DNA of 64,000 nucleotides from Membranipora membranacea (lineage: Eukaryota > Bryozoa > Gymnolaemata > Cheilostomatida > Membraniporidae), in contig OU612074.1 in the NCBI GenBank assembly GCA_914767715.1, forward strand, positions 23,794,062-23,858,061, given 5' to 3'. Made by a program: the position numbers and the translations under genes. Below are positions 13,750-56,223 of the stretch, one piece after another. Numbering within the stretch: the first letter of the stretch is position 1; each line of letters starts with the position of its first letter. The notes beneath the pieces are model-generated. The model did not search any database. It saw nothing but the letters and a program-made list of their open reading frames with translations, and was not told where the DNA came from.

Positions 13750-13815
13750 AATGATGCATTGTGGGAAATTTTGTGGGAATGTTCTGTTGTCGGTGCTCTG
13801 TGTGGGAATGTAGCA
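13750..13815. promoter_or_regulatory. Cluster of three TGTGGGAA (CSL/Su(H)-type) motifs
   Basis: TTGTGGGAAA, TTGTGGGAAT and TGTGTGGGAATG fall within about 60 bp upstream of the nucleoplasmin-like exons. They fit the YGTGGGAA site of the Notch effector CSL. The right copy (58985-59045) keeps two. Binding is unproven. Confidence 0.25.
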
Positions 13816-16555: not shown

Positions 16556-16600
16556 TTGCATGCCTTGTATTCTCATACCTCCTTAGTCTGAGCCCCCCAG

Positions 16601-16830: not shown

Positions 16831-17056
16831 GCAGAGATATTCATTGCTAAGTAGTGAAGAAAAATCTCAGCCAGAATTCCTTTCATTTTGAATAAAGGGC
16901 GGGCATTCATGACATTGACAACAGGTCATACAATGTAATATTATTGGACCCTTAGGCGATATGAAATAATGAGGGGAAAATCCAAGCAAATCCTGCATAG
17001 TGCATACACTAATACCTCCTCAAATATTCTCACCCATTGTTTGTAGGAAAAGGATG

Positions 17057-17784: not shown

Positions 17785-17789
17785 AGGAT

Positions 17790-23951: not shown

Positions 23952-24025
23952 TTATCTTACTAACCACTTGTAGATGGTGGCCTGTCTACGACTTTGTCCA
24001 TTACTCGTAACGGTCAGTATCTCAT
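23952..24025 (-). CDS. Gene A exon 20, terminal
   Basis: Acceptor TGCTAG, then DEILTVTSNGQSRRQATIYKW and a stop at 23952-23954. It is assigned by phase (1) and by resemblance to the gene B terminal exon (both with Y-x-x-W-L/I-V-R near the stop). No clear polyadenylation signal was identified. Confidence 0.6.
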
Positions 24026-26206: not shown

Positions 26207-26246
<40 letters not shown>

Positions 26247-27131
26247 TATACTTACTACCAGCACATGCTTGGATTATCATAATCTTAGGTTTTCCTTTCA
26301 TGGAGGGGAAGTTCTTCGGAGACAGCAGGTCCATGATATCAGTGATCTTTATATGCTTCCTATCTGATCCACCTATAGATCCTTCATCACCATGACTTGT
26401 TAGAACTAAGACAAATGATCCGAGATGAGTGTGTACAGATTCTCCAGTATGAATGTCTACTAACTGTGTCTCTTTGTGGATCTCTGTGATTATATCCTAA
26501 ACAACAATTTTCATAAACCAATACATATCAACATTGGTGTAAAGAACAAACAATTATACCGGCTCATATATGCAGACAATGGTTCATGAGTTATAATATA
26601 ATACAGTAAAATATTATATTATCGCGCTATGTTTCTAAAAAATGGTCTTACATGTGATGTGTAACTCTTATGTTCTCCTACAGTGATATATCCGAGCCTG
26701 TCCCACAGTCTCTTCATATTAGTATAATCATGTTCTGATCCTGGTCTTGTATTATTGTATGAGTTAGATATGATGAGAGCTCTGCCTCGTGTCTCAGTCA
26801 CTGGATATATTGCCTACAAACACATAAACAGCTATATAAAGTGAGACAATAATATGCTGTGTCCCCAGTGGAGAATCGTCATTCATTGCTATGTTGCCTA
26901 TGAAATGTGTCCACTAGGGGTTGGCTATATCGAGTTATCTAAGGACATTTCATAATCCTAATTATGGAGAGGTAAAAGCTTTTAATATTTGTGAGTTACT
27001 ATGCTACAGACCATGTTCTCAGTGACCAGGGTATCAGGATTAGCTAGTACAGGATCTATCTCTATATCGGCTGTCTCAGAGTTCACTATTGATATAATAT
27101 CATCCAGCTGATCTGTGTGTAAGCCAGATGT

Positions 27132-27167
<36 letters not shown>

Positions 27168-30100
27168 TAACTCCGCAGATTCAGCAGCCCGTGCAGATAC
27201 ACCTTAAGAAATTAGAACAGTATTTACACTGCAATGCTGTGAAAATTCTTATCATTGTTTGATGCTGAATCATGTTCTTGATAAAATAGACCTTTTCTTT
27301 TTTTCAAATCAGAATCCAAAGTTTGATGTTGTACTCATGTGTACACACACTTCTGCTTGGCTTAATTAGATTTTGTCTACAAATAACAGTTATGAATGAA
27401 TACCGGATGTAAATCGTTACCTTCATGGAGCAGATGGTCATTGAACTGCAGTAAGTAGGTGTCCAAAGCTTGTACTCCACTTTCTGTGACTCTGCCACCT
27501 AGTATAGTATGAATAAGTTATAGAACCGAAATGCTTATGACACACAAACCTCAAGGCTTTTTTAGATTCTCTGCGATGAAATGAGGATGTGTGAATATCA
27601 GGGAACGCTGACTAGAATGGCTTTTTAGCGCAAACACATTCATTCAGCCACATATCTTTAGAGGGGGTTGGGGTGCCTGTAATACTGGCTAGGGTAATTG
27701 CTTGTTATGCGGCCTAAAAATAGTAAGAAATATGTGCACTCACTCCATAAAAACCTGTCAGAGCTAACCATTTACTCACAAGGGAAAAGGAGTGGATGTG
27801 GGACTGATGGTCGGCCTTTGGCACCTTCATCTCTGTTACATACTCCCATCTCATCACCAGTGTAGAGGACGTTTGATCCCTGGGTCCATGTTGGGTCCAC
27901 CTTCACGGTTGGTTTCTCTTGTTTGGTGAGCAGACAATGTGAGCAGTAAAACACTTTTTCAAAATGGGCTCCCTTCCACACGGATTGTAATTCTGCTTCC
28001 AAGAGCTGCACTGCAGTCAGCTGACCCTCCCAACACTCTGCGATGTGTTTTGGTTTTGCCAATGTTATAATCGACACAGTCCTCTGTTGTTGATCGTGGA
28101 TAAAATATTTGATAGCCCCGTTACTTTCTTTTACACAGGCGCCATTCATTAGAGCTTCAATATTGTTGAACTGAGTGATGTTAAGGTTGATAAATATTGC
28201 AGTGAGCAGATAGTACACATAGCTGGGCAATGGCAGCCCATTGAAGTGAATCTCGACTTTCAGCGGAATGAAATCCCCTGACTCCAGAACAGTGAGCCTT
28301 TTTTGACTGAAGTATGGGACAATGTAGTGTTCCTCACCAGATTCCTTGATTGGACCACACACCAGATGGAAGACTTTCAGAACTTCGACAGCAATGTCAG
28401 GGGTAATCTCAGACTCATTGGCTATCAGGTGCAAAAGTAGAACGGAGTCCATCATTCCAGTTTCCTCAAATCTTTCAACCATTTCCTTGTACTTCCTTTT
28501 GTTGATTCTCTTCCCGCTGCTGGATCGGAACGGCTCAAAACTTGAAAGCCGTATTTTCCATGCTTCATCGCTGGAGTGGTCGAAAATTAACTCAACAAGT
28601 TTCAGGAGCAAGTCAATACGATGAAACACTATCTCGGACAGTTTTTCCCTATCCTTGTACCACATAACTCTTGTTATCTCATGGAGATATTGTAGAATGT
28701 ACCGCTCTTCATCATCTGGAAACATCTCATCTAGCTCTTCCAGGGTCAGAAACGGCCGATCCGTTTTCCCTGCACATAGATCCATCAAGTTGTACCAGCT
28801 TTCTGGTATTTCTGAGAGCAATGGAATACCAATAGACCGGAGAACAGACTTCAAATTTGCGATGACTTCTGCTCCAGATTTCTCATAAATGAGAATGGGT
28901 TGATGGCTTGTGAGCAGAGGCTCTGATGTATCACAGAAACTTTTCATAGAGAAGAATCGACTGGCTTTTGGGGCCATTTCTCTTTCCTCATTTATTATTC
29001 TTTTCCTCAAGGTCTCAGTTGCCTCTATCACTTCTCCCTTCCTCTTGTCCAATATTTCTGGGTCCTTGATGAGATCACAATGAGTAAGAACTAGTAGAGG
29101 TCGGCCAGCTCCAGGACAGGCGAGGAACAAATGGGACAGCCATCCTAAGCAAAGCTTCTCACAGGCACCTTCAACTCCGACCTTAGGAACAAGTGAATCA
29201 AACTCAGCTATATCTATGATGAGAAGAGGTACAAACTGTGACCGGGTGGAGAGCTGATACGAGAACTGATAAATCATCTGACCACCGAAGTCATGAAATA
29301 CCAGCTTTGTTTGAGGGTCAGCAGCAGCCTCACAGACTTTAAATATTTTGGTAGCCTCATCTAGTTCGCTTACGGTCGATCGGCGTGTTAGATGTCGTTT
29401 CCCATCCTGTATTGATTTCACAAGGCTAGTCTTCCCAGCCATAGTCTCCCCAATCACTGTGACTGGAATGTACCTCACCCCAATTCTCTTTTCAAGATCA
29501 GTGAGAAACTTTTGTATTGCTCCCAGTCCTTGTTCATACACAGCAGGTGGCGGGAACAACAGAGATTTACAACCACTAAGCAGAAGAACTTTCAGATTTT
29601 TGAGTCTATGTAGGTGAGCTGGAAGCCTGATGATCTTCTTGTTGCCGCTGAGGTATAGTTCCTTTAAGCTCATTAACCTAGAAAAACTAAAGAGAAATTT
29701 ATGTTATATACATTTTTTTTTGTAAATATCATCATCCATTATGTGAGATAGGATCTGAACCAGCTTACTTCAGGAGAAGCCAGCAGGTTGAATGCAGCAG
29801 GACGGGGAGAAGCTCGGAGAATTCCAGATTTCACAGCTCACAGCCAGGTGATATCATGCATCATGAAGAGGGGGAAGATGATGATGAGATAATATGGACG
29901 CCTAACAGGAGGCGTCATGCACCCTACACATGCTCTTGATAGATCTTTATATTTAAATTTGATCTATGAAATTCTCGAACTATAAGCATTTGCTACAACT
30001 GTTATCTTATATTGTTGGTACAGCACTATTTGTCCTAACAGTCAATGGAATGAATTCTATAGCAATATGGGAAGATAACTCTTACAAACAAACCCTTGTT

Positions 30101-33100
30101 CGTCGCGAACACAATCTGTACTTTTACGTTTTCCAACCTTATCTTATCCTCTCTTTTAAATACTATTTTCCGACCCAAGACCTGCAAGACTCAAAACATG
30201 CCAAATCATTTTTTCCAACCTTAATGTCTTATTTTAACAACATACAACCTTAACCTTTCTTAGTCCATATATTAATTAATGAACGCATTCAATTTTATCA
30301 TTCTCACGATACCGAATGTACAAATAAACTGAAACTGAAACTGTAGTGTGAGGTACGTCACAACCGTCATACTTAATATGAGTTATTACACTAATAATCA
30401 CACAGGTCCGAATGCAATGAAATGCCTCTACCAGCATCTTTCACCGTTTGAGCACTTAAACTAGCGATTAGTGTGCAATGTAAGATCTTCTGATTTTTCT
30501 GATTTGATAAAGATTTTTTGTTCGAAATTGAATTTGCTATAAGGTCCTTTAGCCTGTCTACATTAGTTATTTTCACTTAGAACATTAGAACATTAGTAAA
30601 TTAGTTTCCCATAGTCTCATCATAGCTGCATTATTAGGTGATTGTAAATATCTGAGTCAGATGATATCTTTGATATTTTTTGCTAGTATAACATAAATTG
30701 CCACCATCATGATACCATACCAGCCAGTGGAAAATCGCTACTAGTAGAAATAGTATTATCAAATGGTTGAAATATTTTGTTCACTGATGAATGGGATACA
30801 TATTTGGAACTAAGCCTATTTTATTTTTGCAGGGAAGAACTTTAGTCACTGACTCATACACAGAGATAACACAACTCCATTCATTGGCCTGACGTCATAT
30901 AACCTGAATGTTTGTATTATATAGTTAACCTTCATATATCTGTATCGAGTGTCCAGAAAATTAAATCTCCTAAATCGTATTTCAAATTTCTAATGATGTT
31001 GGAAAACCAAGAGCTTTCAAAGCACAACCAAATTCACTCTCATCTGCCTTATGGCTGCCTTGGTGTCGATAAAAAGTCCTCGAGTTCTCCTTTTTAGGCA
31101 GTACCGGTGAAGATGATATTTGTTTTTTTGCTGGTTCTCGGAGGAGTAACTAGTAACCAGAATGAATAATACCAAAGGTTTCTTTTCCAAACCCTTAAAA
31201 TGGCTTGGACATAAATTTATCAACCATTTGTGGCAATAGTGATAGCCATAGCAATAGATTTATAATATCACTTATACACTACACAAAGACCATTCATTAC
31301 ATATTGTTGTTACAAATGATAAAGGAATTATGTAAGATTTGCATGTTGGTAAATTTCATTGCTCTACAGCACTTGCATTAGTGATGTTGGAACGAGTGCC
31401 ACCCATAAGGGAAGCTATCTCTCGATTTAATCAATTTTCACTTCTCAGGTATCCGTTTTAGCAGCATCCTGATTGAAACCAGTCCTAAACCATTTTGAGG
31501 CCTCTCACTTATTAACCAGATTAAATTTATAGTTAAAGGAACTTTCAGCTATACTCCCTTCCCTCACCCATTTATACACAAAAATTGATCCTAAAACATC
31601 ATATAGCTATTGAGTCCTCAGTAAAATTATATACACACTTAAACATCTACGCACATACGCCTATACACACATACACAGTGTTCATGTAAATCAACATGAA
31701 AAACTGAGGATTGATATCGATGAAATCTCAGGTGGTGGAGCAAAGATAATATATAATTTCCCTGAAGGACACTCTAACCACAAACAACATAAAATAATTT
31801 TATGACCTTATTATTACCAGGCAAACTACCTAATTAATCAATCGGATGGGGGGGGGGTGCTTATGACTACAATAAGGTAATAATTCAATTACGATAACAG
31901 TGTTTTGAAAACAACTATACTGTACTTACCTCTCAGGTATCTCCGTTAGGTCACAATAGCTAAGCGCTAGCTTTTTGAGACACTTCAGATCTCCTATCCG
32001 GCTGGGTAAGGTATGAAGGCTCTCATTTTCATATAAGCACAGCTCCTCTAGGGTGGTAAGTGATCCAATACTGTAATGAAAGTTATTAGATCTGTCAGTA
32101 TGTACCCAGTTTTAAAGGAGCTGCAAAGCAGAAGATAATACAACAATGCACCAATCTAATAGCAAAGTACATATGCAGGTACAGATCTTACTTTTGCAGG
32201 ATAGATGGTATTCAGTGACAATAAAACACATAATAAATAAATAAAGAAATAACACATATGATGGAAAAAAGCTAATGTATAATAACGTCAACTTGCAGTT
32301 CTTGAGACTGCAGCTAATATAAAGATCTATGTGATCTCAAACTGAGTTAAGAGTTGGGTAAAATATGATTAGATCATAACTTTGTATTGTTATATACTTC
32401 GCATGGGCTATTCTTTCTTTGGGGAATCACAGAACCATTGTCCTGGCCAAAAAAACAAGAGTGATTTTTGGTGTTGATCAAAATTCAATCTACGTAACAG
32501 TTCTATCTCATTTAAATTAATATCTAGTGACCTTGAGGTCAGGTTATATATGGTTTAGTGGTTGTCTGCTCTGCAACTGTTATCAGGTCCATTCACAGCT
32601 GTATTGAGGATGACCCATAGGAAAAGAGCCAAGGTTTGGTGCTTTCTTATCCGCTTGATGACTCTATATCACCTATCATATTAAATTAATTAGATACTGT
32701 GTAACACCCGACTGAGGCTGTTATGGTTCAGGTCATGTGATAGAGGAGGCAGCAGCGGAAAATTTTGAGAGTGAACATCTTGATACGACTATGAATCAGT
32801 TTAAACTTGATATTCAGCTCTGTAGTGAATGATATTCTGTTCCAAAGAGCTGATTTCCTTACTGGCTATTCATTTAACATTTATAAATGGGTTGCCAGGG
32901 TTGTCTGCTACTTTAACAAGCACTAATTTATACCCGTCCTTTTAACAGAATAATAATAAAAAAAAAACTCAGCTAACATACCAGTAACCAATTCCATGTT
33001 GCCAATCCAACAAAAGAAATTTTCTGTCGATCAATAACACTCATGCGTTTACCATCGGCCAAAAATCTTTATTTAGTAACTTCATTTATGCCAAACCAGT

Positions 33101-36100
33101 ACAGTCTGTCCGCCCAGCTATTTTGAAAATTGGCACACCTCCGCGAGATAGCTTCAATCTATGTATGTATGTATGTATATGATGCTCAAATAATAGTGTG
33201 GGAGAGAAGTTATTCATCAGTTAAAATGAAATGAGGGTAAAGAACTGACTTAGAACGCCAACCACCCTCTACCTTTTTTAAATTAGCCCACAGGATGAAC
33301 ACTTTCGATAATTTTAAATCCTGCCTATTTACCGAACTAAAACTTCCGAAAAATTACTTTCTTAATCAAATTACAAAGTGGTTGCAAAGTTTCCAATGTT
33401 AACATATATTAGGGTTTTCAAGAATATAAGATAGCTGATAATTTTGCTTGTTTTACTATTCTTGGCCCGGTCTCTAAATTTAAATCCTTGTACATTTTCA
33501 ACCTGCAGGGTATTTTGGACATGGGTTTAGGTAGCCTGTCTTGACTAGGTTTGTTGTGGCAGATGCTTGCCCCTTCCCACTGCAAAGCTTGTCAAGACAG
33601 GCTCAGATATAGGGTGCGATATGCAAAATAATGAGTACTAGCAGCTGGACTTAAATGGCTCTCTGTTGATTCTGTTTTATACATTAGGATTCGCTGAAGG
33701 AGATAAAATGCTTTTCTGACGTTAGAAGATTTTAATCAGACGGAAATGTACTCTATCAAGCAACATGTTGTAGATTTAAGTCCCTGGCCAATTTAAGAGA
33801 TACAAAAATGATTTGCTTCCATAGACTTTACTTTTAGGTCTATTTTTGATACACAGCTTTCTAAGTATCCCTCGGAATATCGTCTCGGAAAAGATTGATA
33901 CACAAAAGGAGCCTAAGTTTCTTTAAATTATTTTGGTTGATTGATTATAGCTTGTAATTATACAACAAAATTTACCAAAAGCCATGAGGATCATTACACA
34001 TTGGTAAGCTTAATTTTGTAGAGTGATTTGTCAAGAACCTTCAAATTGCGTAGTGACAAGATCACTTGTGAAGAAATGTCTAGTCTCCACAATTTAGGTT
34101 CTGTCCATTGGTCTGTTATATATTTGGTTATGCTATAAAATCCCACAGGGTTCATTGATCGGGATAGAAAACTACTGATTTAAACTCGTGAGAAAGAGGC
34201 TAGAAAGACATGGAGATATCTAAAACTTGGGTGACAAATATTCTGAGTCGCTACACTATTTTGAGTCCACTGACCAACATAAGAATTAAAACTAAAGGCC
34301 CTCATTATTCCTTACTTCTCTTCAAACTTACCCTTACTCACTCTCCCCTATGCAACGAGGCAATTTTGTGTCAACAAAATTCATTCCCATGAATTTTGAT
34401 GGCGGCATATTATAAACATTTCTGAATCTGAATTATTGTCATTACTTTCTAATGAATCAAGATTTCCCTTTTTACATTTCAAGAGTTTAACAGTAGGGTC
34501 TAATGATCCGAAAATTTGTTAAACGAAAACAAAGGATAGCCATTCAATTATATGCACCTAGAAGTTGCAAGGCAGTTATCTTTGGAGGAGCCATGCCCAA
34601 ATCCCTTATCTCTGCTCTAAAAAAAGCTGTGTACTTTGGATTTCTTATATCTGTATGATGTGATAATGCAGTTTAATAACAATTTTTGTTGCCAACCAGT
34701 AATTGAATCAAACACCTCACTTGATGCCCTCTATATTGATTGCAGATTGTTTGAGTTACCTGAGCTTACTAGTTTATAATGTTGATTTTGTGTGTTTGAT
34801 AAATGTGTAGATTTACATGTAGCAGACGTTATTATGTAATGATTTTGAATTAACCTAGATTGTGCAGGCACTTAGTGTGCCTTCTTTGATGAATTGAGAG
34901 CAGAGCAGTGTTCGACTTGAGAGAGAGTGGACCTGCACCAGCGTGAATAAAGATCTTTTATCCTTTAAGTACAAACTAGTGAATATGTAGACAGCAATAT
35001 AAAAATGTTTTTAAGACTTTCATCATGAACCTCCCTGCCTAAGACGGTTGAGGAACATTAAAAGAAACAACCTTTAGTCGTTACATCCCCATATCTATAA
35101 TGAAAGAGTGAAGACATCGGATCATATCACGTGTGATTATTATTATTATTTGGACGCCTAACTCTAAACTCTCATGTGTACACATGGCTGAGTATTTAAG
35201 AATTTGACATGAAAACCTGGAATTACGTATGCGATTAGTTAGTTTAAGTGCTCAAACGGTGCAAGATGCAGGTAGAGGCATTTCATTATCAACCACCAGT
35301 AGTTGATAATGAAATGCCTCTACCAGCATCTTGCACCGCTTGAGCACTTAAACTAGCGATTAGTGTGAAATTTAAGATCCTCTGATCAGATCAGAGCACA
35401 CCTGGGGGCCAACCAAATCCTACTGCAGTTGGCCTCCAGGCGTGCTCCGACCTGCCTGCAAACAGAGAGCAAACTGGCGGAGACATTGCGGCATTGCCAT
35501 TAAGGCAAAATAATTTTCGCCGCCCATGCTTCGGGATGTGGCGTGTGATATGACATCCGATTTTAATCAACCTTGAACCAGTTTTTTGTTGACATCGCCG
35601 GAACTTTGTCTGATATCAACCTCCAATCTGCTCTAACCGATCTACCATATGACAGTACACATTGGGCAAGTAAAACACCGGCTGCGTAATATAGACACAT
35701 CAAAGTCAACATGTGCATCAGACTTTCCCTCATAAGTCTCAAAGTTTTGTTGTGAGGATTGGTGCATACCAATGTGGGATCTAAATAAACAAATGGACAG
35801 AAATGGTAGATGAAAAGAACTGTCACGCTGATCCTACCGCTTTCCTAGACATGTCAAAGGCTTTTGACAGAATGGAAAAAAATAAAAGTAATAGAGAAGC
35901 ATGCATCAAGAAAAGATGACAAGAATCTAATCTCCATTGTGCATGCTTCTTGGATGGCAGAGAGCGAAAAGTAAGGTTAGGCAACTCCATCAGCCTAACC
36001 TTGAAAACGAAAAATGGAACACCTCAGGGCACTCTCCTAGGACCAATTTTCTGGTTACTGTATATCGACTCACGGTCAACCAAGCACGGGACCATTGACA

Positions 36101-45100: not shown

Positions 45101-48100
45101 ATATGACAGTTCACATTGGGCAAGTAAAACACTGGCTGCGTAATATAGACACATCAAAGTCAACATGTGCATCAGACTTTCCCTCATAAGTCTCAAAGTT
45201 TTGTTGTGAGGATTGGTGCATACCAATGTGGGATCTAAATAAACAAATGGACAGAAATGGTAGATGAAAAGAACTGTGACGCTGATCCTACCGCTTTCCT
45301 GGATATGTCAAAGGCTTTTGACAGAATGGAAAAAAATAAAAGTAATAGAGAAGCATGCATCAAGAAAAGTTGACAAGAATGTAATCTCCATTGTGCATGC
45401 TTCATGGATGGCAGAGAGCGAAAAGTAAGGTTAGGCAACTCCATCAGCCTAACCTTGAAAACGAAAAATGGAACACCTCAGGGCACTCTCCTAGGACCAA
45501 TTTTCTGGTTACTGTATATCGACTCACGGTCAACCAAGCACGGGACCATTGACAAATATGGGGATGACCTCACCAAAACACCCAAGGTCAGCAGTGCTGC
45601 TAGGGACTATAGATGATATTACCAACTGGTGTGTTAACCACAATATGCCAGCCATCGCGATCGCACATCATAGATCAGACTAAATTTCTGATCTGACGTA
45701 GAGAAAAGCGCCATACTGGTGGAATCTAGGGTGCCTGGTGACACAATGCCTATACAAAGGATATAATTGAAAATAATTCCCAGTGGAAGTAGGCTTCAAT
45801 GAAGATGCGGTAGATCAGCTATCAATTTCGAGACTTGCGTTTTCAGACAAAGAACGCAAACAAGCAATAAAACGAGTAGTACAAGCACTAAACTGAGAGG
45901 AGTAAGTGATCAGCTCCTTGGGTACTCAGGATATTGGGTTGAGTTGGGATTGTGGCTCCAATACCCGCAAAAAGATCACTCCAAAGGAGTCCTATAAAGA
46001 TTTTCAGGCAAAAACAGAACGAAAATAGTAATTTTGCAGCCATTTGTTGATGGTCATAAGGGGACGTTGTAGCGAACTTTAGATAGAACAGTTAAAACAT
46101 CATATCATTTAAACAAGGAATAGGACTTAAACTGCGTTTTTTAACAAAGTAGATTTTGTTGTATGACAGGGAGGAATTTTGAGTGTTGATGTAAATCAAC
46201 ATGATAATCTGAGGGGGGGGGGGGTGGACTTTCTCGACTATCATTGAGATACCAATTGTGAAAAATAAACATTTTCACCTTAATACTACCCGATAAACAA
46301 CTTAATTAATCAATCAGATGGGTGCAGTTCTTATGAGTAAAATAAAGGATTATTTTAGTTACAATAACAGTGTTTTGAAAACAACTATACTGTACTTACC
46401 TCTCAGGTATCTCTGTTAGATCACAATAGCCCAGATCTAGCTTTTTGAGGCACTTCAGATCCCCTATCCGGCTGGGTAAGGTATGAAGGTTCTTATTTAA
46501 AGATAATCTCAGCTCCTCTAGGTTTGTAAGTGATCGAATACTGTAATGAAGGTTATTAGATCTGTCAGTATGTACCCAGTTTTAAAGGAGCAGCAAAGCA
46601 GAAGATAATACAACAGTGCACCAATCTAATAGCAAAGTACATATGCAGGTACTGATCTTACTTTTGCAGGATAGGTGGTATTCAGTGACAATAAAACACA
46701 TAATAAATAAATAAAGAAAAACAAATATGATGGAAAAAAGCTAATGTATAATAACGTCAACTTGCAGTTCTTGAGACTGCAGCTATTATAAAGATCTATG
46801 TGATCTCAAACTGAGTTAAGAGTTGGGTAAAATATGATTAGATCATAACTTTGCATTGTCATATACTTCGCATGGGCTATTCTTTCTTTGGGCAATCACA
46901 GAACCATTGTTCTGGCCAAAAAAACAAGAGGGATTTTTGGTGTTGATCGAAATTCAATCTACATAACATTTCTATCTCATTTAAATTAATATCTAGTGAC
47001 CTTGAGGTCAGGTTATATATGGTTTAGTGGTTGTCTGCTCTGCATCTGTTATCAGGTCCAATCACAGCTGTATTGAGGATGACACATATGAAAAGGGCCA
47101 AGGTTTGGTGCTTTCTTATCCGCTTGATGACTCTATATCACCTATCATATTAAATTAATTAGATACTGTGTAACACCCGACTGAGGCTGTTCTGGTTCAG
47201 GTCATGTGATACAGGAGGCAGCAGCGGAAAATTTTGAGAGTGAACATCTTGATACGACTATGAATCAGTTTAAACTTGATATTCAGCTCTGTAGTGAATG
47301 ATATTCTGTTCCAAAGAGCTGATTTCCTTACTGGCTATTCATTTAACATTCATAAATGGGTTGCCAGGGTTGTCTGCTACTTTAACAAGCACTATTTTAT
47401 ACCCGTCCTTTTAACAGAATAATAATTAAAAAAAACTCAGCTAACATACCAGTAACCAATTCCATGTTGCCAATCCAACAAAAGAAATATTCTGTCGATC
47501 AATACCACTCATGCGTTTACCATCAGCCAAAAATCTTTATTTAGTAACTTCATTTATGCCAAACCAGTACAGTCTGTCCGCCCAGCTATTTTGAAAATTG
47601 GCACACCTCCGCGAGATAGCTTCAATCTATGTATGTATGTATGTATATGATGCTCAAATAATGGTGTGGGAGAGAAGTTATCCATCAGTTGAAATGAAGG
47701 TAAAGAACTGACTTAGAACGCCAACCACCCTCTACCTTTTTTAAATTAGCCCACAGGATGAACACTTTCCTGGATTTTAAATCCTGCCTATTAATGGAAC
47801 TAAAACTTCCGAAAAATCACTTTCCTAATCAAATTACAAAGTGGTTGCAAAGTTTCCTATGTTAACATATATTAGGGTTTTCAAGAATAAATGATAGCTG
47901 ATAATTTTGCTTGTTTTACTATTCTTGGCCCGGTCTCTAAATTTAAATCCTTGTACATTTTCAACCTGCAGGGTATTTTGGACATGGGTTTAGGTAGCCT
48001 GTCTTGACTAGGTTTGTTGTGGCAGATGCTTGCCCCTTCCCACTGCAAAGCTTGTCAAGACAGGCTCAGATATAGGGTGCGATATGCGAAATAATGAGTA

Positions 48101-51100
48101 CTAGCAGCTGGACTTAAATGGCTCTCTGTTGATTCTGTTTTACGATGCCCTGTATATTGATTGCAGATTGTTTGAGTTGCCAGAGCTTATTAGTTTATAA
48201 TCTTTACTTTGTGTCTTAGATAATTGTGTGGATTTACATGTAGCAGACATTATTATGTAGTGATTTTGAATTAACCTAGATTGTGCAGGCACTTAGTGTG
48301 CCTTCTTTGATGAATTGAGAGCAGAGCAGTGTTCGACTTGAGAGAGAGTGGACCTGCACCAGCGTGAATAAAGATCTTTTATCCTTTAAGTACGAGCTAC
48401 TGAATATGTAGACAGCAATATATAAATGTTTTCAAGACTTTCACCATGAACCTCCCTGCCTAAGACGGTGCGCCCTGCTCGACAGCACAGAGGTTGAGGA
48501 ACATTAAAAGAAACAACCTTTAGTCGTTACATCCCCATATCTATAATGAAAGAGTGAAGACATCGGATCATATCACGTGTGATTATTATTATTATTTGGA
48601 CGCCTAACTCTAAACTCTCATGTGTACACATGGCTGAGTATTTAAGAATTTGACATGAAAACCTGGAATTACGTATGCGATTAGTTAGTTTAAGTGCTCA
48701 AACGGTGCAAGATGCAGGTAGAGGCATTTCATTATCAACCACCAGTAGTTGATAATGAAATGCCTCTACCAGCATCTTGCACCGCTTGAGCACTTAAACT
48801 AGCGATTAGTGTGAAATTTAAGATCCTCTGATTTTTTCTGATTTGATAAAGATTTTTTGTTCGAAATTGAATTTGCTATAAGGTCCTTTAGCCTGTCTAC
48901 ATTAGTTATTATCACTTAGAACATTAGAACATTAGTACATTAGTTTCCCATCGTCTCATCATAGCTGCATTATTAGGTGATTGTAAATATCTGAGTCAGA
49001 TGATATCTTTGATATTTTTTGCTAGTATAACATAAATTGCCACCATCATGATACCATACCAGCCAGTGGAAAATCGCTACTAGTAGAAATAGTATTATCA
49101 AACAGTTGAAATATTTTGTTCACTGATGAATGGGATACATTTTTGGAACTAAGCCTATTTTATTTTTGCAGGGAAGGACTTTGGTCACTGACTCATACAC
49201 AGAGATAACATAACTCCCTTCATTGGCCTGACGTCATATAACCTGAATGTTTGTATTATATAGTTAACCTTCATATATCTGTATCGAGTGTCCAGAAAAT
49301 TAAATCTCCTAAATGGTATTTCAAATTTCTAATGATGTTGGAAAACCCAGAGCTTTCAAAGCACAACCAAATTCACTCTCATCTGCCTTATGGCTGCCTT
49401 TGTGTCGATAAGAAGTACTCGAGTTTTCCTTTTTAGGCAGTACCGGTGAACATGATACTTGTTTTTTTGCTGTTTCTTGGAGGAGTAACTAGTAACCAGA
49501 ATGAATAATACCAAAGGTTTCTTTTCCAAACCTTTAAAATGGCTTGGACATAAATTTATCAACCATTTGTGGCAATAGTGATGATTTATAATATCACTTA
49601 TACACTACACAAAGACCATTACATATTGTTGTTACAAATGATAAAGGAATTATGTAAGATTTGCATGTTGGTAAATTTCATTGCTCTACAGCACTTGCAT
49701 TAGTGATGTTGGAACGAGTGCCACCCATTAGGGAAGCTATCTCTCGATTTAATCAATTTTTACTTCTCAGGTATCCGTTCTAGCAGCATCCTGATTGAAA
49801 CCAGCCCTAAACCATTTTGAGGCCTCTCACTTATTAACCAGATTAAATTTATAGTAAAAGGAACTTTCAGCTATACTCCCTTCCCTCACCCATTTATACA
49901 CAAAAATTGATCCAAAACATCATATAGCTATTGAGTCCTCAGTAAAATTATATACACACTTAAACATCTACGCACATACACCTATACGCACATACACAGT
50001 GTTCATGTAAATCAACATGAAAAACTGAGGATTGAAATCGATGAAATCTCAGGTGGTGGAGCAAAGATAATATCTAATTTCCCTGAATGACACTCTAACC
50101 ACAAACAACATAAAATAATTTTATGACCTTAATATTACCAGGCAAGCTACCTAATTAATCAATTAGATGGGGGCGTGCTTATGACTGAAATAAGGTAATA
50201 ATTCAATTACAATAACAGTGTTTTGAAAACAACTATACTGTACTTACCTCTCAGGTATCTCTGTTAGATCACAACTTCCTACATCTAGCTTTTTAAGACA
50301 CTTCAGATCCCCTATCCGGCTTGGTAAGGTATGAAGGCTCTTATTTTCATATAAGCACAGCTCCTCTAGGTTTGTAAGTGATCCAATACTGTAATGAAAG
50401 TTATTAGATCTGTCAGTATGTACCCAGTTTTAAAGGAGCAGCAAAGCAGAAGATAATACAACAGTGCACCAATCTAATAGCAAAGTACATATGCAGGTAC
50501 TGATCTTACTTTTGCAGGATAGGTGGTATTCAGTGACAATAAAACACATAATAAATAAATAAAGAAATAACAAATATGATGGAAAAAAGCTAATGTATAA
50601 TAACGTCAACTTGCAGTTCTTGAGACTGCAGCTATTATAAAGATCTATGTGATCTCAAACTGAGTTAAGAGTTGGGTAAAATATGATTAGATCATAACTT
50701 TGCATTGTCATATACTTCGCATGGGCTATTCTTTCTTTGGGGAAGCACAGAACCATTGTTCTGGCCAAAAAAACAAGAGTGATTTTTGGTGTTGATCAAA
50801 ATTCAATCTACATAACATTTCTATCTCATTTAAAGTAATATCTAGTGACCTTGAGGTCAGGTTATATATGGTTTAGTGGTTGTTTGCTCTGCAACTGTTA
50901 TCAGGTCCAATCACAGCTGTATTGAGGATGACACATAGGAAAAGAGCCAAGGTTTGGTGCTTTCTTATCCGCTTGATGACTCTATATCACCTATCATATT
51001 AAATTAATTAGATACTGTGTAACACCCGGCTCAGGCTGTTATGGTTCAGGTCATGTGATACAGGAGGCAGCAGCGGAAAATTTTGAGAGTGAACATCTTG

Positions 51101-54100
51101 ATACGACTATGAATCAGTTTAAACTTGATATTCAGCTCTGTAGTGAATGATATTCTGTTCCAAAGAGCTGATTTCCTTACTGGCTATTCATTTAACATTT
51201 ATAAATGGGTTGCCAGGGTTGTCTGCTACTTTAACAAGCACTATTTTATACCCGTCCTTTTAACAGAATAATAATAATAAAAAAAACTCAGCTAACATAA
51301 CAGTAACCAATTCCATGTTGCCAATCCAACAAAAGAAATATTCTGTCGATCAATACCACTCATGCGTTTACCATCAGCCAAAAATCTTTATTTAGTAACT
51401 TCATTTATGCCAAACCAGTACAGTCTGTCCGCCCAGCTATTTTGAAAATTGGCACACCTCCGCGAGATAGCTTCAATCTATGTATGTATGTATGTATATG
51501 ATGCTCAAATAATAGTGTGGGAGAGAAGTTATTCATCAGTTGAAATGAAAGTAAAGAACTGACTTAGAACGCCAACCACGGCATATCATAAACATTGTCA
51601 TTACTTTCTAATGAATCAAGATTTCCCTTTTTACATTTCAAGAATTTAACAGTAGGGTCTAATGATCTGAAAACTTGTTAAACGAAAACAAAAGATATAA
51701 CATAACATAACATATTATAAGAAAACGCCCGTACAGTTACCTCTCAGGTATCTCAGTAAAATCACAGTGATGTATATATAACTTATGTAGAGTTTTCATC
51801 TCCCCGACCCAGCTGGGTAAAGAACTGAGGCTATTGTAGGATAAATCCAGCACCTCTAGAGTATCCAGTGATCTGATGCTAAAATGAGAGAAACAATGAA
51901 CCAATAATAAGGCATGTTGATCAGTGATACATAATATAATAACATCTGTCTTATTTGACACATGGATTGAATCCATTGTAATACATAAATTAATACAGTA
52001 ACATACTATCAGAAAACACCTGTACAGTTACCTCTCTGGTATCTCAGTGAGATTACAGTTAATTACTATAAATTTACTAATACATTTAATACTATATTCT
52101 ACTTGTTGCATATGCCCATTGGTAATAATTGTGGAGATAAATTATATTCCTAATCAAAGAGGAGGAGACAGCTAATCATTTCTGGTCATTCAACATTCAT
52201 CCTCTCTTTTATATTGGGAGCACAACTCGAGATTCTATGTATTTTATGACTCACATTGTGAAATAAGGCTCTGAACACATTATTATATTCAATCATAGCT
52301 TCCTATAGCTTGTCGCAAGTGAATTACAAATGCATTTCTTTCATAAAAAATTTCCGTGTTTGACAAACAGAGATAAGCATAAATAACAAATAGCGATTTT
52401 GTTTCGTATTTTTCAAAAGAGCAAAACCCTGTTATTTGTTGACATGTACAGACAAGTGTCAGCCCTGCTGCTAGAAAGGACAGAGTTTACTCACTTCTCT
52501 AACTGATCTACATCAGTAATCCCTTCTATCTCCAGCTGTTTGAGATGAGGTGCTATCTGGTGTAGTGGTGGTATGTCACGGAAGATAGTCATATGTGTCA
52601 CAGTGTGACCTTCTGTAGCTGATAATAACTCATTTACAGTAAGTGTGCTGAAGTCGTGCAGGACAGGTATATTATCTATATCAGGCTGACTATCATATCT
52701 GTACCATACTTGATACTCTGTAAGTGTAAATTATTACTAGAATTGATATACCAGGACCCAACTCAAACAGCGTGCGGTGGCGGTAGGGATGGAAAAGTAT
52801 GGGGAGATTCAGGGAAATTAAAAAAATCCAAAGAATCTTACTTTGAGAGGCATGATTTCCATATGGTTTGTGGTTTTGTTTGTTTTACCGTTATCGGTGC
52901 CAAACCTGATCAGTGATTTGCTCAGATGTTGTTGAGGAATTAACATAATCACTATGTCCATAGTAATCCATCTGCTTTGTTATAGAAAAGGGGATAATTT
53001 CTCATAAAGCGGTCGCTTCAGTTCCTGATGTGCATGGTGATTCAACAAGACGAAGTCAACAAGATACTTTTAAACATCATCTGCTAGCTGTGAATTTTCA
53101 GAAAACCGAAACAAACAAATAAATCCTTTATTCAAGATACTCAATCGCCTATAAATATACCTATATATAACAAAGCCCTGTATGCTGTTGTTGGGGGAAA
53201 CTGTCCCTCCCTAAATCATACGACAGCAACTTTGATCATAATCATACTTTGTTGTCACCCTTCTCACCAGGTTGTCTGCACAGCCTACCAAGCCTTGGCA
53301 GTTTGTCTCATACCCTATGTGTCTGCAGAGGTCACACACCCCAATGGGCTTTTATTCCTAGCTACTAATCTACTCATCAAACATGTACGGACTATACTGA
53401 CATGGCCTGTTTCTCTTATTACTGGTTATAAACCCAGAGACACTTACTTTTTCTACTACCACTGCCTTCACTGTACTGTACTGAGAGAGTCTCATCTACA
53501 TATAGAGAGGAGAAGGTTTAGTTGTTTTAGTCAGTTGTTGAGATACTACAATTTAACTTGAAGTGTAGAGTTGATAAATATGTAAGAACTGTGTTAGGGC
53601 ACATTGCATCACATTTTTAAATAAAAAAATTTTCTCTGAGTATCATTTTTGAAACGGTACAACACTGCAACATCTTTATATTATACAGTATTTTAATATT
53701 TTTATTATGAGCTCAACAGACGCTTTTATTTCTCAATCACTTGGCAGAGACAGAATAAATTATCCTATCCTATCCTATATCCTAACTGAATTGTGTTTTG
53801 TCCTCTCTGTGTGAGTCATGGTGAGGCAGCAGGTAGAAGTTATCAGATAAAACAAGATCTGTATTGTAGGTAAGCTATAAAACACTTTATCCAGGTAATT
53901 ATTTTAGGAAATCAAAATATTGATTCAATTTGAATAGAGATTGGTATTTTCCTACTTTGGAGTTGCCCTTCCATATTTAAGAATAAAATGTACTACAATA
54001 CTACTTCTGACTTAGCTCAAGCGCTTAAACTGTGTTGGGATAGCTGGTAGTACATTTCATTATCATGCTACTAACAGCTATCCTGACACAGTTTGAGCGC

Positions 54101-56223
54101 TAAAACTACTTCTGACTCAGAGTTATTATTCTGTATGATGAAAGTTTAGGATAAAGTCACAGTTCTGGTACATTGTGTTATATAAAGTAACCAGGCTCAC
54201 CTGATGTTTGTGTCAGTGCGGTTGCGTCAGCTAAAGGTTCCACATATACATCTAGTGGTTGGGATTGTTGATCACTCATCAGCTGCTCCTCTCCCTGATC
54301 CTGTTGGTTTATCTGATTGTTAGTACATCTGTACTGAGTATCACCCTGTGAAGGAGAAGTCTGATGAGAGATAGGTAGAGCTGCCTGAGAAGTGTAACCA
54401 GGAAGAAATCCTCTCTGGTTGTCTGAAAGTAGAAAACCAGTACAAAATATTATTAATATATTACCACAACCAAACCAAGACAATGAATTCTCTTAAGCCA
54501 AGGTCATATTCTTGTTGAATGTATTGTATTTCACAATTGATCACAGGCACTGTTGTGAGAAAGTTTAAATTGCGGAGCAAAAATGTACTGTCCTGGTCTC
54601 CATTCAGGGGTGTACATCACTGTATCCCTTAAGGGGTGTACATCACTGTATCCCTTAAGGGGTGTACATATCACAGTCATCACTCAGGGGTGTACATCAC
54701 TGTATCCCTTAAGGGGTGTACATATCACTGTCATCACTCAGGGGTGTACATCACTGTATCCCTTAAGGGGTGTACATATCACTGTCATCACTCAGGGGTG
54801 TACATCACTCTCTCAACTCAGGGGTGTACATCACTGTATCCCTTAAGGGGTGTACATATCACTGTCATCACTCAGGGGTGTACATCACTGACATGACTCA
54901 GGGGGGTACATCACTGTCTCTACTCAGAGTTGTACATCACTGTCTCCACTCAGGGGCGTACATCAATGACTTGACTAAGGAGCACTGAATTAGATTCTTC
55001 TCTTAGAATGGAAATAGTATCATAGCGTTATACAGTATAGGACACTAAACACAGGGACTCATCTGACTGTTATCTGATTGGCTGTCCCTAGTAGCATGAA
55101 TAATAAGCCTGAGAAATTGTCTTGTTTACAAAATTGCAAACAGTAATTATACCCCTACTGTGTCGATGATTAGGGCATTTCTAGATTGCTACTAGGGACT
55201 GGCTATTTTTGCAAGCCCTTTGTTTTGCAAAAGAAAGCTAATGATGCTATTCCAGATATGGAATTCAATGCTAAGGAGTGTACATCACCGGCTCCACTAA
55301 GGGGTGTACATCACTGTCTCCACTCAGGGGTGTACATCACCGACTTCACTCAGGGGTGTACATCACTGTCTCCGCTCAGGGGTGTACATCACTGTCTCCA
55401 CTCAGGGGTGTACATCACTCTCTCCGCTCAGGGGTGTACATCACTGTCTCCACTCAGGGGTGTACATCACTCTCTCCACTCAGGGGTGTACATCACCGAC
55501 TTCACTCAGGGGTGTACATCACTGTCTCCGCTCAGGGGTGTACATCACTGTCTCCACTCAGGGGTGTACATCACTCTCTCCGCTCAGGGGTGTACATCAC
55601 TGTCTCCACTCAGGGGTGTACATCACTCTCTCCACTCAGGGGTGTACATCACTGACTCTACTCAGGGGTGTACATCACTGACTTCACTCAGGGGTGTACA
55701 TCAATGACTTGACTAAGGAGTGTACATCACCGGCGCCACTAAGGGGTGTACATCACTGTCTCCACTCAGGGGTGTACATCACTCTCTCCACTCAGGGGTG
55801 TACATCACTGACTCCACTCAGGGGTGTACATCACTGGCTCCACTCAGGGGTGTACATCACTGTCTCCACTAATGGGTGTACATCACAGTGTCACTCAGGG
55901 GTGTATATCACTGCCTCTTCTCAGGGGTGTACATCACTGCCTCTACTCAGGGTCGTATATCAGTTGTATATCACTTTCAGCTAGTCAGTGGATATTATGA
56001 CTGTACCCAGTCAGAGCTGCTGATGACCGGTTCCATTCTGAGTGTGAGTCACTTATTATATTTGTATTTACTATCATACGTAATAATAATAAGGTCCTAA
56101 CAAACAGTAATTTTTATTACAGTGCAAACTCCACTCACCACCAGCAGGGCGATCTGTCCCTGAAGCCTGACGGTCTTCATCCACCCCTTCTTGGTCTAGT
56201 TTTCTTCTCTTCGCTGGATCCAT
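23952..56223 (-). CDS. Gene A: LRR-ROC-COR-caspase fusion, complete, 20 coding exons
   Basis: Coding exons in transcript order: 56139-56223, 54201-54422, 53448-53495, 52495-52717, 52032-52076, 51741-51878, 50248-50388, 46400-46540, 40791-40931, 36950-37090, 31930-32070, 27780-29677, 27421-27498, 27012-27202, 26652-26813, 26256-26496, 25728-25901, 25278-25387, 24759-24999, 23952-24025. All have GT-AG borders and matching phases; they total 4,635 nt, a 1,544-residue protein. Order: basic N-terminus (1-28), linker (29-118), LRRs (about 120-540), ROC GTPase (about 560-740), COR (about 770-1020), a CxxC region (about 1080), caspase p20 (about 1212-1345) and p10 (about 1404-1520). ROC-COR proteins are GTP-regulated and usually carry kinase or death domains; caspases are cysteine proteases of cell death and immunity. 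Coupling LRR sensing to protease activation is inference. Splicing is predicted without transcripts; the 26652-27012 junction uses a weak donor (GTCTGT). Confidence 0.85.
24298..24736. mobile_element. hAT-like MITE in last intron of gene A
   Basis: Terminal repeats CAGGGCTCTCAACC and GGTTGAGAGCCCTG with 8-bp flanks ATGTAGCA (24290-24297) and ATGTTGCA (24737-24744), one mismatch. It is 439 bp, noncoding, and ends 22 bp from the exon 19 donor. Confidence 0.85.
24759..24999 (-). CDS. Gene A exon 19, caspase p10 C-terminal part
   Basis: Codes for IRQVVARNGVQRTDYL and then SMPQSRCTFLTEKFYLWPG, equivalent to the caspase MPQ...TLRKxLYFxPG end. A roughly 60-residue extension follows (SLRYPVLPNPTATNIEQQH). 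A hAT-like element ends 22 bp beyond the donor. Confidence 0.85.
25278..25387 (-). CDS. Gene A exon 18, caspase p10
   Basis: A 110-nt exon coding SFSSPRRASVGSPFIRALV and YKYSHRLHMEELAAS. This matches the caspase S-x-R...GSxFIxxL block that forms the S1-S3 pocket and the following helix. Gene B has the same-length exon at 19956-20065. Confidence 0.85.
25728..25901 (-). CDS. Gene A exon 17, interdomain linker and start of p10
   Basis: Codes for KREMMLGATPQAVANQ, an acidic Asp-rich stretch (SDSGDDLQDSTPEDIS) and DFIIMQSSFE, the first p10 strand. The Asp-rich stretch is where a caspase would be cleaved between large and small subunits. In gene B this is fused without intron to the preceding exon. 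Confidence 0.85.
26214..26247. repeat. (TA)n microsatellite
   Basis: TA dinucleotides with a central ATATACATATAT, just inside the intron next to the caspase catalytic exon donor. Confidence 0.9.
26256..26496 (-). CDS. Gene A exon 16, caspase p20 catalytic part
   Basis: Contains the catalytic His in TSHGDEG (residue about 1300) and the catalytic Cys in IIQACAG (about 1343). The family consensus is QACRG; Ala replaces Arg here and in gene B. KGKPKIMIIQACAG is otherwise textbook caspase. The donor GTAAGT at 26250-26255 lies beside a (TA)n tract in the following intron. Confidence 0.9.
26652..26813 (-). CDS. Gene A exon 15, caspase p20 N-terminal part
   Basis: Codes for 54 residues with the first caspase strand and substrate-pocket region: GRALIISNSYNNTRPGSEHD then MKRLWDRLGY. 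The Arg-x-Gly of TRPGSEHD corresponds to the S1-pocket Arg segment of caspases (RRGTD type). Gene B has the same with TRRGSQCD. Confidence 0.85.
27012..27202 (-). CDS. Gene A exon 14, poly-Ala linker
   Basis: A 191-nt exon with 12 consecutive GCT Ala codons, an unstable trinucleotide tract, then LDDIISIVNSETADIEIDP. The gene B equivalent (21311-21466) has a Ser/Gly-rich stretch instead of poly-Ala but keeps LDEIISIVTSDD. This is probably the caspase prodomain junction. Confidence 0.7.
27421..27498 (-). CDS. Gene A exon 13, short linker
   Basis: A 78-nt phase 1-1 exon encoding GRVTESGVQALDTYLLQF plus a few residues. Gene B has an exon of the same length and pattern (21677-21754, GSITEKGVQVLDKYI). 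It is too short for a CARD or DED; a predicted helix joining COR to the caspase is the simplest reading. Confidence 0.7.
27780..29677 (-). CDS. Gene A exon 12: last LRRs, ROC GTPase and COR domain
   Basis: A 1,898-nt uninterrupted exon. It opens with two LRRs (LKELYLSGNKKIIRLP...LKVLLLSGC), then a Ras-like ROC domain: P-loop GETMAGKTS, switch-II HDFGGQ and a G4-like LTHCDL. The COR domain follows, with the typical IPESWYNL and ILQYLHEITRVMWY segments. Near the end is a CxxC-containing stretch (FYCSHCLL) that recurs in gene B. ROC-COR modules bind and hydrolyse GTP and dimerise through COR; they are known from LRRK, MFHAS1 and DAPK-type proteins. Here no kinase follows; the donor GTGAGT at 27779 leads to caspase exons. 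No frameshift or stop is seen. Confidence 0.9.
29678..31929. other. Intron between last LRR exon and ROC-COR exon
   Basis: Contains the LINE tail 29990-30343, a fold-back SINE remnant, one hairpin arm, and block B (30480-31925), which also occurs at 39372-40785 and 48822-50243. No exon is recognised. Confidence 0.6.
29990..30343 (+). mobile_element. LINE 3' tail, diverged copy
   Basis: Matches 44110-44331 (CGACCCAAGACCTGCAAGAC..., ending AAATAAACTGAAACTGAAAC) in the intron between the ROC-COR exon and the first LRR module. Confidence 0.65.
31930..32070 (-). CDS. Gene A exon 11, two LRRs (diverged type 1)
   Basis: A 141-nt symmetric exon with LEELCLYENESLHTLP and KKLALSYCDLTEIPE. It differs from the other type 1 exons mainly at exposed positions of the LxxLxLxxN strands. 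It splices to the ROC-COR exon, completing an Arg codon (AG|G). Confidence 0.8.
35231..35363. repeat. Long hairpin in intron (module 1)
   Basis: Arms of about 62 bp (GCGATTAGTTAGTTTAAGTG... and its inverse) around an 8-bp loop CACCAGTA. Copies at 39228-39360 and 48677-48808; a single arm remains at about 30405-30470. Confidence 0.9.
35830..36162 (+). mobile_element. LINE reverse-transcriptase fragment (module 1)
   Basis: Plus-strand remnants of a non-LTR RT: FLDMSKAFDRM (about 35843), then an open frame from 35950 with GTPQGTLLGPIFWLLYI and KYGDDLT, the YxDD box. Stops and frame changes separate the pieces, so it is dead. It is carried as part of the LRR exon module. Confidence 0.85.
36950..37090 (-). 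CDS. Gene A exon 10, two LRRs (type 2)
   Basis: A 141-nt symmetric exon, type 2 (LEELRLSLNKNLHTLP). It lies beside the LINE reverse-transcriptase block of the first module, as 46400-46540 does in the second. Confidence 0.8.
39228..39360. repeat. Long hairpin in intron (module 1/2 border)
   Basis: Same element as 35231-35363 with a few mismatches between the arms. Confidence 0.9.
40791..40931 (-). CDS. Gene A exon 9, two LRRs (type 1)
   Basis: A 141-nt symmetric phase 2-2 exon identical in protein to 50248-50388. It sits at the equivalent place in the second 9-kb module and is preceded by the same intron block. Confidence 0.8.
43990..44331 (+). mobile_element. LINE 3' end (CR1/L2-like) with TGAAAC tail
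   Basis: An open frame to 44211 with HFNKIASDPEHPLFSR and TFRPKTCKTQKHAKSF resembles the C-terminus of CR1/L2-type ORF2. A 3' UTR ending AAATAAACTGAAACTGAAAC follows. Inserted only in module 2. Confidence 0.65.
44335..44622. repeat. Fold-back pair of tRNA-derived SINEs
   Basis: The ends are about 85-bp inverted repeats starting TGTGGTACGTCACAACTGTC. Inside each arm is a tRNA-like T-arm: GATTCGAGTCC (plus, about 44523) and GGTTTGAGACC (minus, about 44424). The plus one is preceded by an A-box-like TGGTGCGATGG. This reads as two tRNA-SINEs joined head to head. A collapsed remnant is at about 30340-30412. Confidence 0.7.
44793..44955. repeat. Inverted repeat with about 74-bp arms
   Basis: Left arm from AATGGCGAGGCTGCAATGTC, right arm ending GCGGCCTTGCCATT, loop of about 14 bp. 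The module 1 copy (from about 35385) keeps only the right arm and part of the left. Confidence 0.85.
45284..45616 (+). mobile_element. LINE reverse-transcriptase fragment (module 2)
   Basis: Near-identical copy of 35830-36162, 9,454 bp away, duplicated with the module and not by transposition. Confidence 0.85.
46400..46540 (-). CDS. Gene A exon 8, two LRRs (type 2)
   Basis: A 141-nt symmetric exon with LEELRLSLNKNLHTLP and KKLDLGYCDLTEIPE. It is the module partner of type 1 exons and nearly identical to 36950-37090; one Gly-to-Arg change (SIRSL for SIGSL) distinguishes them. Confidence 0.8.
48677..48808. repeat. Long hairpin in intron (module 2/3 border)
   Basis: Same element as 35231-35363, almost identical in both arms. 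Confidence 0.9.
50248..50388 (-). CDS. Gene A exon 7, two LRRs (type 1)
   Basis: A 141-nt symmetric exon, 47 residues, with LEELCLYENKSLHTLP and KKLDVGSCDLTEIPE. Its protein is identical to the exon at 40791-40931, showing a very recent duplication. Acceptor is TTACAG|T, donor AGAG|GTAAGT. Confidence 0.8.
51741..51878 (-). CDS. Gene A exon 6, two LRRs
   Basis: A 138-nt symmetric phase 2-2 exon coding 46 residues, from SIRSLDTLEVLDLS to CDFTEIPE. It is one codon shorter than its gene D equivalent (2287-2427). The spacing of L-L-L-L and the LP/IP motifs is that of plant-like/ROCO-type 23-24-residue LRRs. Confidence 0.8.
52032..52076 (-). CDS. Gene A exon 5, half-LRR micro-exon
   Basis: A 45-nt symmetric phase 2-2 exon encoding KFIVINCNLTEIPE, the C-terminal half of the same repeat type that ends every LRR exon (C-D/N-L/F-TEIPE). 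Borders are ATTAG and AGAG|GTAAC. The gene D equivalent is 2581-2625. Confidence 0.65.
52495..52717 (-). CDS. Gene A exon 4, start of the LRR region
   Basis: Codes for about 74 residues beginning YQVWYRYDSQPDIDNIP and ending in degenerate LRR-like segments (HLKQLEIEGITDVDQLE). It ends in phase 2, the phase shared by all downstream LRR exons. It differs from gene D exon 4 at nine codons, all amino-acid changing. Confidence 0.75.
53448..53495 (-). CDS. Gene A exon 3, 16-codon micro-exon
   Basis: A 48-nt symmetric exon (phase 1-1) bordered by ATGTAG and GTAAGT, encoding DETLSVQYSEGSGSRK. It keeps the frame between exons 2 and 4 and has an equivalent at 4000-4047 in gene D. Being symmetric, it could be skipped without a frameshift. 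Confidence 0.6.
54019..54102. repeat. Hairpin in gene A intron 2
   Basis: Duplicate of 4567-4648. Its arms share the sequence type GAGCGCTTAAA with the longer hairpins at 35231. Confidence 0.8.
54201..54422 (-). CDS. Gene A exon 2, Gln/Ser-rich linker
   Basis: Codes for about 74 polar residues rich in Gln, Ser, Thr and Asn, likely disordered. Borders are TTTCAG|AC and TCAG|GTGAGC, phase 1 at both ends. No known domain is recognised. Compared with gene D (4748-4969) it has roughly ten amino-acid changes, more than the surrounding intron would predict. Confidence 0.75.
54600..54975. repeat. 26-bp minisatellite in gene A intron 1, first part
   Basis: Same repeat as 6283-6892, with variants carrying CCCTTAAGG and a higher-order pair of about 54 bp. 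Interrupted on its right by the MITE 54983-55270. Confidence 0.95.
54983..55270. mobile_element. hAT-like MITE inserted in the minisatellite of gene A intron 1
   Basis: A 288-bp insert (CACTGAATTAGATTC...GAATTCAATG) splitting the 26-bp repeat array, with perfect 8-bp target duplication CTAAGGAG (54975-54982, 55271-55278). A longer relative is at about 22790-23433. Confidence 0.85.
55271..55955. repeat. 26-bp minisatellite in gene A intron 1, second part
   Basis: About 26 copies with a higher-order duplication (blocks around 55330-55490 and 55490-55620 repeat almost identically). Longer than the gene D array, so it expanded after duplication. Confidence 0.95.
56139..56223 (-). CDS. Gene A exon 1, start codon and basic N-terminus
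   Basis: Codes for 28 residues starting MDPAKRRKLD, with a KRRK basic cluster that could be a nuclear localisation signal. An in-frame TAG lies six codons upstream of the ATG, and the exon ends in G|GTGAGT (phase 1). The matching exon of gene D (6976-7060) differs by only two residues (Gln/Lys and Arg/His), supporting this as the true start. No promoter element is obvious. Confidence 0.8.

Follow-up and report, generated by a model that had tools for sequence, protein, structure and literature searches.

Gene A of the bryozoan Membranipora membranacea is best read as encoding one chain that carries LRRs, a ROC GTPase, a COR domain and a caspase. A single protein of this layout had been proposed in a preliminary description of the locus, and it is supported by in-phase exons, a caspase exon downstream at 67 of 67 scored loci, a splice donor at the end of COR, a partial second copy (copy B), and co-variation between the two halves. 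Judged from its genomic sequence, gene A is a member of a large family and not a single oddity. The parts, their order and frame, the catalytic residues and the recurrence at 67 scored loci can be read directly from the DNA; from these we infer that the product would function as a sensor, switch and protease.

Gene structure and neighbouring copies

We modelled gene A on the minus strand of a 64-kb window (the whole stretch of DNA that was analysed), where it spans positions 56223-23952 and has two neighbours, gene C and copy B. Our own model has 19 exons, 4,590 nt and 1,529 aa with a single terminal stop, and all introns have a GT donor and an AG acceptor, with consistent phases and an unbroken reading frame. 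When a 45-nt mini-exon (52076-52032) was put into this model we obtained 20 exons and exactly 1,544 aa, reproducing the phase-consistent 20-exon model of 1,544 residues described previously. The mini-exon encodes half an LRR, is phase-neutral with GT-AG borders, is identical in gene C (2625-2581), and is best regarded as optional from its sequence context. Bacterial contamination was rejected as a source of the gene: gene A has many introns, and the window is part of a 24.4-Mb contig in an assembly of 339 Mb.

The first exon (56139-56223) contains the start codon (MDPAKRRKLDQ...) and ends in a gtgagt donor, with 26 of 28 residues the same in gene C (7060-6977). A 26-bp minisatellite occupies intron 1 (54598-56011) and also occurs in gene C (6269-6891). 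Exon 2 (54201-54422, the N-terminal region), exon 3 (53448-53495) and exon 4 (52495-52717, the region preceding the LRRs) follow, and exons 1-4 have no Pfam match. The next six exons are 138-141 nt long and encode two LRRs apiece: LRR exon 1 (51741-51878; matched by Pfam LRR families), followed by LRR exons 2 (50248-50388), 3 (46400-46540), 4 (40791-40931), 5 (36950-37090) and 6 (31930-32070), each of 141 nt with phase 2-2. LRR exons 2 and 4 encode the same protein.

The last LRRs, the Roc GTPase and COR share a single exon of 1,898 nt (27780-29677), which is followed by two linker exons and then six caspase exons. Linker exon L1 (27421-27498) is conserved in copy B and was detected at several paralogous loci, while linker exon L2 (27012-27202) comprises an Ala tract and, on comparison with copy B, a conserved helix-like motif, with a second in-phase donor 12 nt further on. 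The caspase is divided among exons C1 (26652-26813; start of p20, with a pocket Arg), C2 (26256-26496; the catalytic SHG and QAC), C3 (25728-25901; an Asp-rich intersubunit linker), C4 (25278-25387; p10, with a pocket Arg), C5 (24759-24999; end of p10) and C6 (23952-24025; the last exon, with the stop), the C-termini of the relatives P0017 and P0018 matching this last exon.

Both neighbours are also on the minus strand. Copy B (19050-22226) consists of the last ~100 COR residues, the linker exons and a complete caspase; a profile search in all frames of the window found no ROC relic upstream of it. Gene C (2286-7060) is the 5' end of the next tandem gene, with exons 1-4, the mini-exon and LRR exon 1, and runs off the window. 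Gene A and copy B are the only two places in the window with a caspase. A long tandem duplication relates window positions 1-19448 and 41-64 kb, its larger blocks being 93-97% identical, and a further ROC-COR exon (L008) lies ~2.7 kb beyond the window end.

Domains and catalytic residues

The domains named in the preliminary description, i.e. LRRs, a ROC with P-loop, a COR and a caspase with His and Cys, are all present on the minus strand between 23952 and 56223. Pfam recognises them unequally. In the 1,529-aa model the LRRs (LRR_14, 7.7e-55) and the caspase (Peptidase_C14, 2.5e-31, 109.6 bits against a cut-off of 21.4, profile positions 1-233 of 233) are clear, while Roc lies around its cut-off of 27, with 25.8 bits (1.3e-5) in the full model, just below, and 27.3 bits on the exon alone. 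COR-A, at 13.2-15.0 bits, is below its cut-off of 35.3 and is seen in all 17 members when E up to 0.1 is allowed, so the COR assignment is based on an AlphaFold model. This model of the ROC-COR exon was built with 16 relatives and has a mean pLDDT of 81.7. Foldseek placed the LRR-Roc-COR structure of CtRoco as its best PDB match (E 1.6e-17); LRRK1 and LRRK2 rank soon after it, and the COR-only entry 3dpt has E 3.8e-8. These matches settle the predicted ROC-COR fold. Gene A thus has the features of a ROCO protein, a Roc GTPase domain with P-loop and switch motifs and a COR directly after it.

The characteristic motifs are found at residues 550 (GETMAGKTS), 603 (DFGGQ), 672 (THCD), 1283 (TSHGDEG) and 1326 (QACAG). 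Alignment to CED-3 and caspase-1 shows that SHG, QAC and both P1-Asp pocket arginines are kept, where the TRPG and SPRR segments of gene A align with TRNG and SWRN of CED-3 and their arginines are presumably the residues that form the P1-Asp pocket. With a p20/p10 fold, the catalytic His and Cys and the pocket arginines, the domain is therefore an animal-type (C14A) caspase and not a metacaspase. Gene A, copy B and P0017 each have Asp-rich stretches ahead of p20 and in the p20-p10 interval; the AlphaFold caspase model built from P0017 has a mean pLDDT of 48.5. Neither a NACHT nor an NB-ARC ATPase, the switch expected of an NLR, has a Pfam match up to E 1 in the gene A model, and no CARD or adaptor domain was found there by Pfam.

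A family of ROC-COR-caspase loci

We searched the genome from which the window comes (339 Mb in 18 contigs) with gene A as the query. From 307 candidate ROC-COR loci the best 67 were scored, so the family numbers at least 67, a lower bound that favours close relatives: gene A served as query, scoring was confined to the best candidates, and less similar ROC-COR genes that lack a caspase would have escaped it. A caspase exon lies downstream on the same strand at all 67 scored ROC-COR exons (tblastn, E up to 1e-6), within 1.5-3.3 kb of downstream DNA examined per exon; at one locus (L007, then L072) a longer stretch was needed. No scored locus (0/67) has an opposite-strand caspase exon downstream of ROC-COR, and no caspase occurs in the 1.5 kb 5' of 30 of the scored ROC-COR exons. 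The order of ROC-COR followed by caspase thus recurs at 67/67 scored loci, more often than chance would give. A scan of genome contigs for relatives returned four bacterial loci, all weak (24-35% identity), and the viral contigs scanned had none.

By best match, 42 of the downstream caspases are of the gene A type and 25 of a second, diverged type; two examples of the latter, joined by eye, reach 51.0 and 54.5 bits with Pfam Peptidase_C14. At two loci (L035 and L036) the LRRs and ROC-COR lie within one long open exon, of 978 and 1,633 aa in the stretches examined, and a type-2 caspase follows each; their LRRs are very regular, in contrast to the exon-split LRRs of gene A. At type-2 loci, for example L055, a conserved KYPLD..DI.LLCD.SDQYIIPY precedes the caspase and may be a small extra domain. 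One further locus (L007/L072, G000:C10:22185998-22191150) has a ROC-COR exon, a type-2 caspase and, further on, a type-1 caspase exon, and its exon order would fit a double-effector or effector-swap locus.

Turnover of the LRR array

Five of the six LRR exons lie within near-identical tandem DNA repeats spaced 3.8-5.6 kb apart, whose units are 97-100% identical over parts, and the LRR exon count is only as reliable as the assembly there. Two unit types alternate along the array. Short ORFs on the plus strand inside the repeats (35920-36162 and 45374-45616) have a reverse-transcriptase look; on testing, the first had no Pfam match and this reading of it was rejected.

Compared with LRR exons 2 and 4, LRR exon 6 has differences at 16/141 and 15/141 positions, against 43/1771 and 39/1757 in the chosen flank bins, a divergence about four times that of the surrounding introns. 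When the flanks are widened to take in the 200 bases that follow the exon and, in the case of exon 4, a far upstream bin as well, they differ at 53/1965 and 65/2448 positions (p 6e-6 and 2e-5); the far upstream bin of LRR exon 2, which does not align (149/459 differences), was left out. Synonymous differences are also raised, at 8.0/33.8 and 7.0/33.8, which suggests that exon cassettes have been exchanged.

Genes A and C show a similar excess, their exons differing at 35/631 positions (5.5%) and their introns at 51/2283 (2.2%; p 5e-5), with an overall dN/dS of 0.98. In exon 4, which was singled out afterwards, the nonsynonymous differences are 10.8/169.8 and the synonymous 0.2/49.2. Together with the divergence of LRR exon 6, this indicates that the recognition part changes quickly, and positive selection on it is no more than suggested.

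The join between COR and caspase

A phase-1 splice donor lies inside the last COR codon (Cys) at 66 of the 67 loci by pattern, and at the remaining locus, where the stretch started too late for the pattern, it was seen by eye. The two halves also vary together: across 29 loci the pairwise distances computed from ROC-COR track those from caspase exon C1 (Mantel r 0.769, reached in 0 of 5000 permutations). Copy B follows the order of gene A, with the end of COR, then L1 and L2, then the caspase. Over the 96, 76 and 327 codons compared in these three parts, dS between gene A and copy B is 1.06, 1.13 and 1.09, and dN/dS is 0.34, 0.59 and 0.21, respectively. As dS is equal and dN/dS below 1, the COR end, linker and caspase were duplicated together and have been under constraint since.

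Proposed mechanism

Roco proteins dimerise through COR, and pairing is what activates initiator caspases, so a sensor, switch and protease on one chain is the simplest reading of gene A. Our overall explanation, which we consider likely, is that gene A belongs to a large animal family in which one LRR-ROC-COR-linker-caspase chain works in the manner of an inflammasome or apoptosome. The LRRs would sense a foreign or danger ligand, and the nucleotide cycle of ROC-COR would alter the pairing of chains, bringing two caspase domains into an active arrangement. The paired caspases would then cut at the Asp-rich linkers, and once cleaved could trigger cell death or inflammation; the position of Asp-rich stretches on either side of p20 is fitting for such self-cleavage. 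As CtRoco is a dimer without nucleotide or with GDP and a monomer with GTP (PMC5714945), activation may come with the hydrolysis of GTP and not with its binding; alternatively, larger assemblies may form.

Alternative explanations

Relatives from protein searches bear on whether the full chain is the only product. Sixteen ROC-COR relatives came from metagenomes, of which 14 keep the PC end and none extends to a caspase; likewise, none of four caspase relatives extends to COR. A search for the COR-L1/L2 junction, in which the best 7,994 candidates by shared words were scored, returned P0017 and P0019 only, neither reaching COR, and these searches thus gave no transcript that runs from COR into the caspase. 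Spliced relatives are contiguous across the caspase introns. P0017, almost the L012 gene itself, has L2 and C1 spliced together, and its 5' end falls inside the intron preceding L2; this may reflect either retention of the intron or an independent start of the caspase. In P0019 and P0020 the initial Met stands at the caspase, and a caspase-only product is therefore possible.

Both forms may accordingly be made, a full-length fusion and, from promoters within the gene or through alternative splicing, shorter caspase-only products; copy B would then be a caspase partner of the fusion. We take this seriously without favouring it. The start of P0017 fits, as does a relative with both A-like (P0018) and B-like (P0017) C-termini, and copy B is intact from the COR end to the stop, with a dN/dS of 0.28 over 499 codons and without a ROC; yet copy B may be a duplicated tail with no expression of its own.

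The caspase might also be no trigger of cell death, but a non-apoptotic protease under the control of the GTPase, or one that only cuts and frees its own chain. Caspases do have non-apoptotic roles, and the Asp-rich linkers flanking p20 on both sides would suit such release. Against this, large, tandem and fast-changing LRR families usually recognise non-self, as may be inferred from NLRs and from brown-algal ROCO genes (PMC11378527), and we find the non-apoptotic reading rather doubtful.

It is unlikely that two neighbouring genes, one for LRR-ROC-COR and one for the caspase, always travel together. The intronic 5' end of P0017, the Met starts of P0019 and P0020, an ATG at the end of exon L2 in gene A and the lack of ROC in copy B would all agree with two genes. 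However, at all 30 loci with a complete ROC-COR exon COR closes with an in-frame donor and not a stop, gene A and copy B have linker exons L1 and L2 in common, frame and phase continue through gene A, and order and strand are kept at all scored loci; the colinear loci and the conserved donor in particular leave the two-gene reading weakened. Misassembly of the tandem LRR repeats or of the LRR-to-ROC exon join is very improbable, since, for all the near-identity of the repeat units, the ROC-COR to caspase join lies outside them and recurs across the scored loci, and L035 and L036 hold LRRs and ROC-COR in one open exon.

Relation to known systems

Bacterial LRR-AP-GTPase-COR proteins carry at least 24 domains at the C-terminal position, caspase included (Kaur et al. 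2021, PMC8195603). Like gene A, these conflict proteins have N-terminal LRRs, ROC, COR and a C-terminal effector, with several copies per genome (PMC8195603). They differ in being prokaryotic, with uninterrupted genes, whereas gene A is an animal gene with a true p20/p10 caspase on six exons and a P1-Asp pocket. A Bacteroidia contig in our scan (L003) encodes LRR-Roc-COR-CHAT, where CHAT is a caspase relative and not an animal caspase. The gene A family shares the bacterial architecture and not the prokaryotic origin, and we count it as an analogue of the AP-GTPase systems, not a member.

In animals, LRRK1/LRRK2 and MFHAS1 have the same LRR-ROC-COR core. A review describes animal ROCOs as LRR only, with a kinase, or DAPK1; the LRRKs end in a kinase and WD40 and MFHAS1 ends after COR, whereas gene A ends in a caspase (PMC6337361). 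Aplysia ROCO proteins likewise link animal ROC-COR to innate immunity, but through TIR and MyD88-like/death-like partners and not a caspase (PMC9334734). A sponge NLR paper names CASc and COR in a figure legend, with the proteins that carry them left unspecified there (PMC12909245). Brown-algal ROCO genes resemble gene A in having LRRs on repeated phase-2 exons with recent duplication, but those exons are 72 nt with one LRR, compared with 138-141 nt and two LRRs; the text of the algal paper does not contain the word 'caspase', and its group 3 has another C-terminal peptidase, IPR009003 (PMC11378527).

We found no description of an animal LRR-ROC-COR-caspase protein in the literature searched, via listings and passages. 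The earlier statement that no described LRR-ROCO with a caspase effector was known therefore fails for bacteria (PMC8195603) and, within the literature searched, holds for animals; with the bacterial version in print, novelty within that literature is limited to an animal protein with a true caspase.

The logic of gene A, namely an LRR or other repeat sensor, a nucleotide switch and a caspase, is that of NLR inflammasomes and of Apaf-1 with caspase-1 or caspase-9. The switch here is a GTPase and not a STAND ATPase, and the caspase would be on the same chain as the sensor and the switch.

Implications

Animal caspase activation, as taught, involves several proteins, i.e. a sensor, an adaptor and a caspase. 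In the gene A family, with its dozens of copies, a single chain would hold the sensor, a GTPase switch and the protease. For LRRK2 it is an open question how an effector is driven by dimerisation of ROC-COR, and the family would allow a direct test of it with an easily measured protease read-out. It would also connect cell death in animals with conflict proteins of bacteria that share this layout.

The loci, at least 67 in number, look like a large repertoire of one-piece danger sensors. We lean towards regarding them as one-chain, inflammasome-like animal receptors in which a ROC GTPase, and not a STAND ATPase, controls the attached caspase, with renewed LRR cassettes and two caspase types. 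In the LRR part, phase-2 exon cassettes would be duplicated in tandem and exchanged, while the effector part would come in two caspase types, both in one locus at L072. If true, this one-chain receptor repertoire would give animals a counterpart to the LRR-ROC-COR-effector systems of bacteria.
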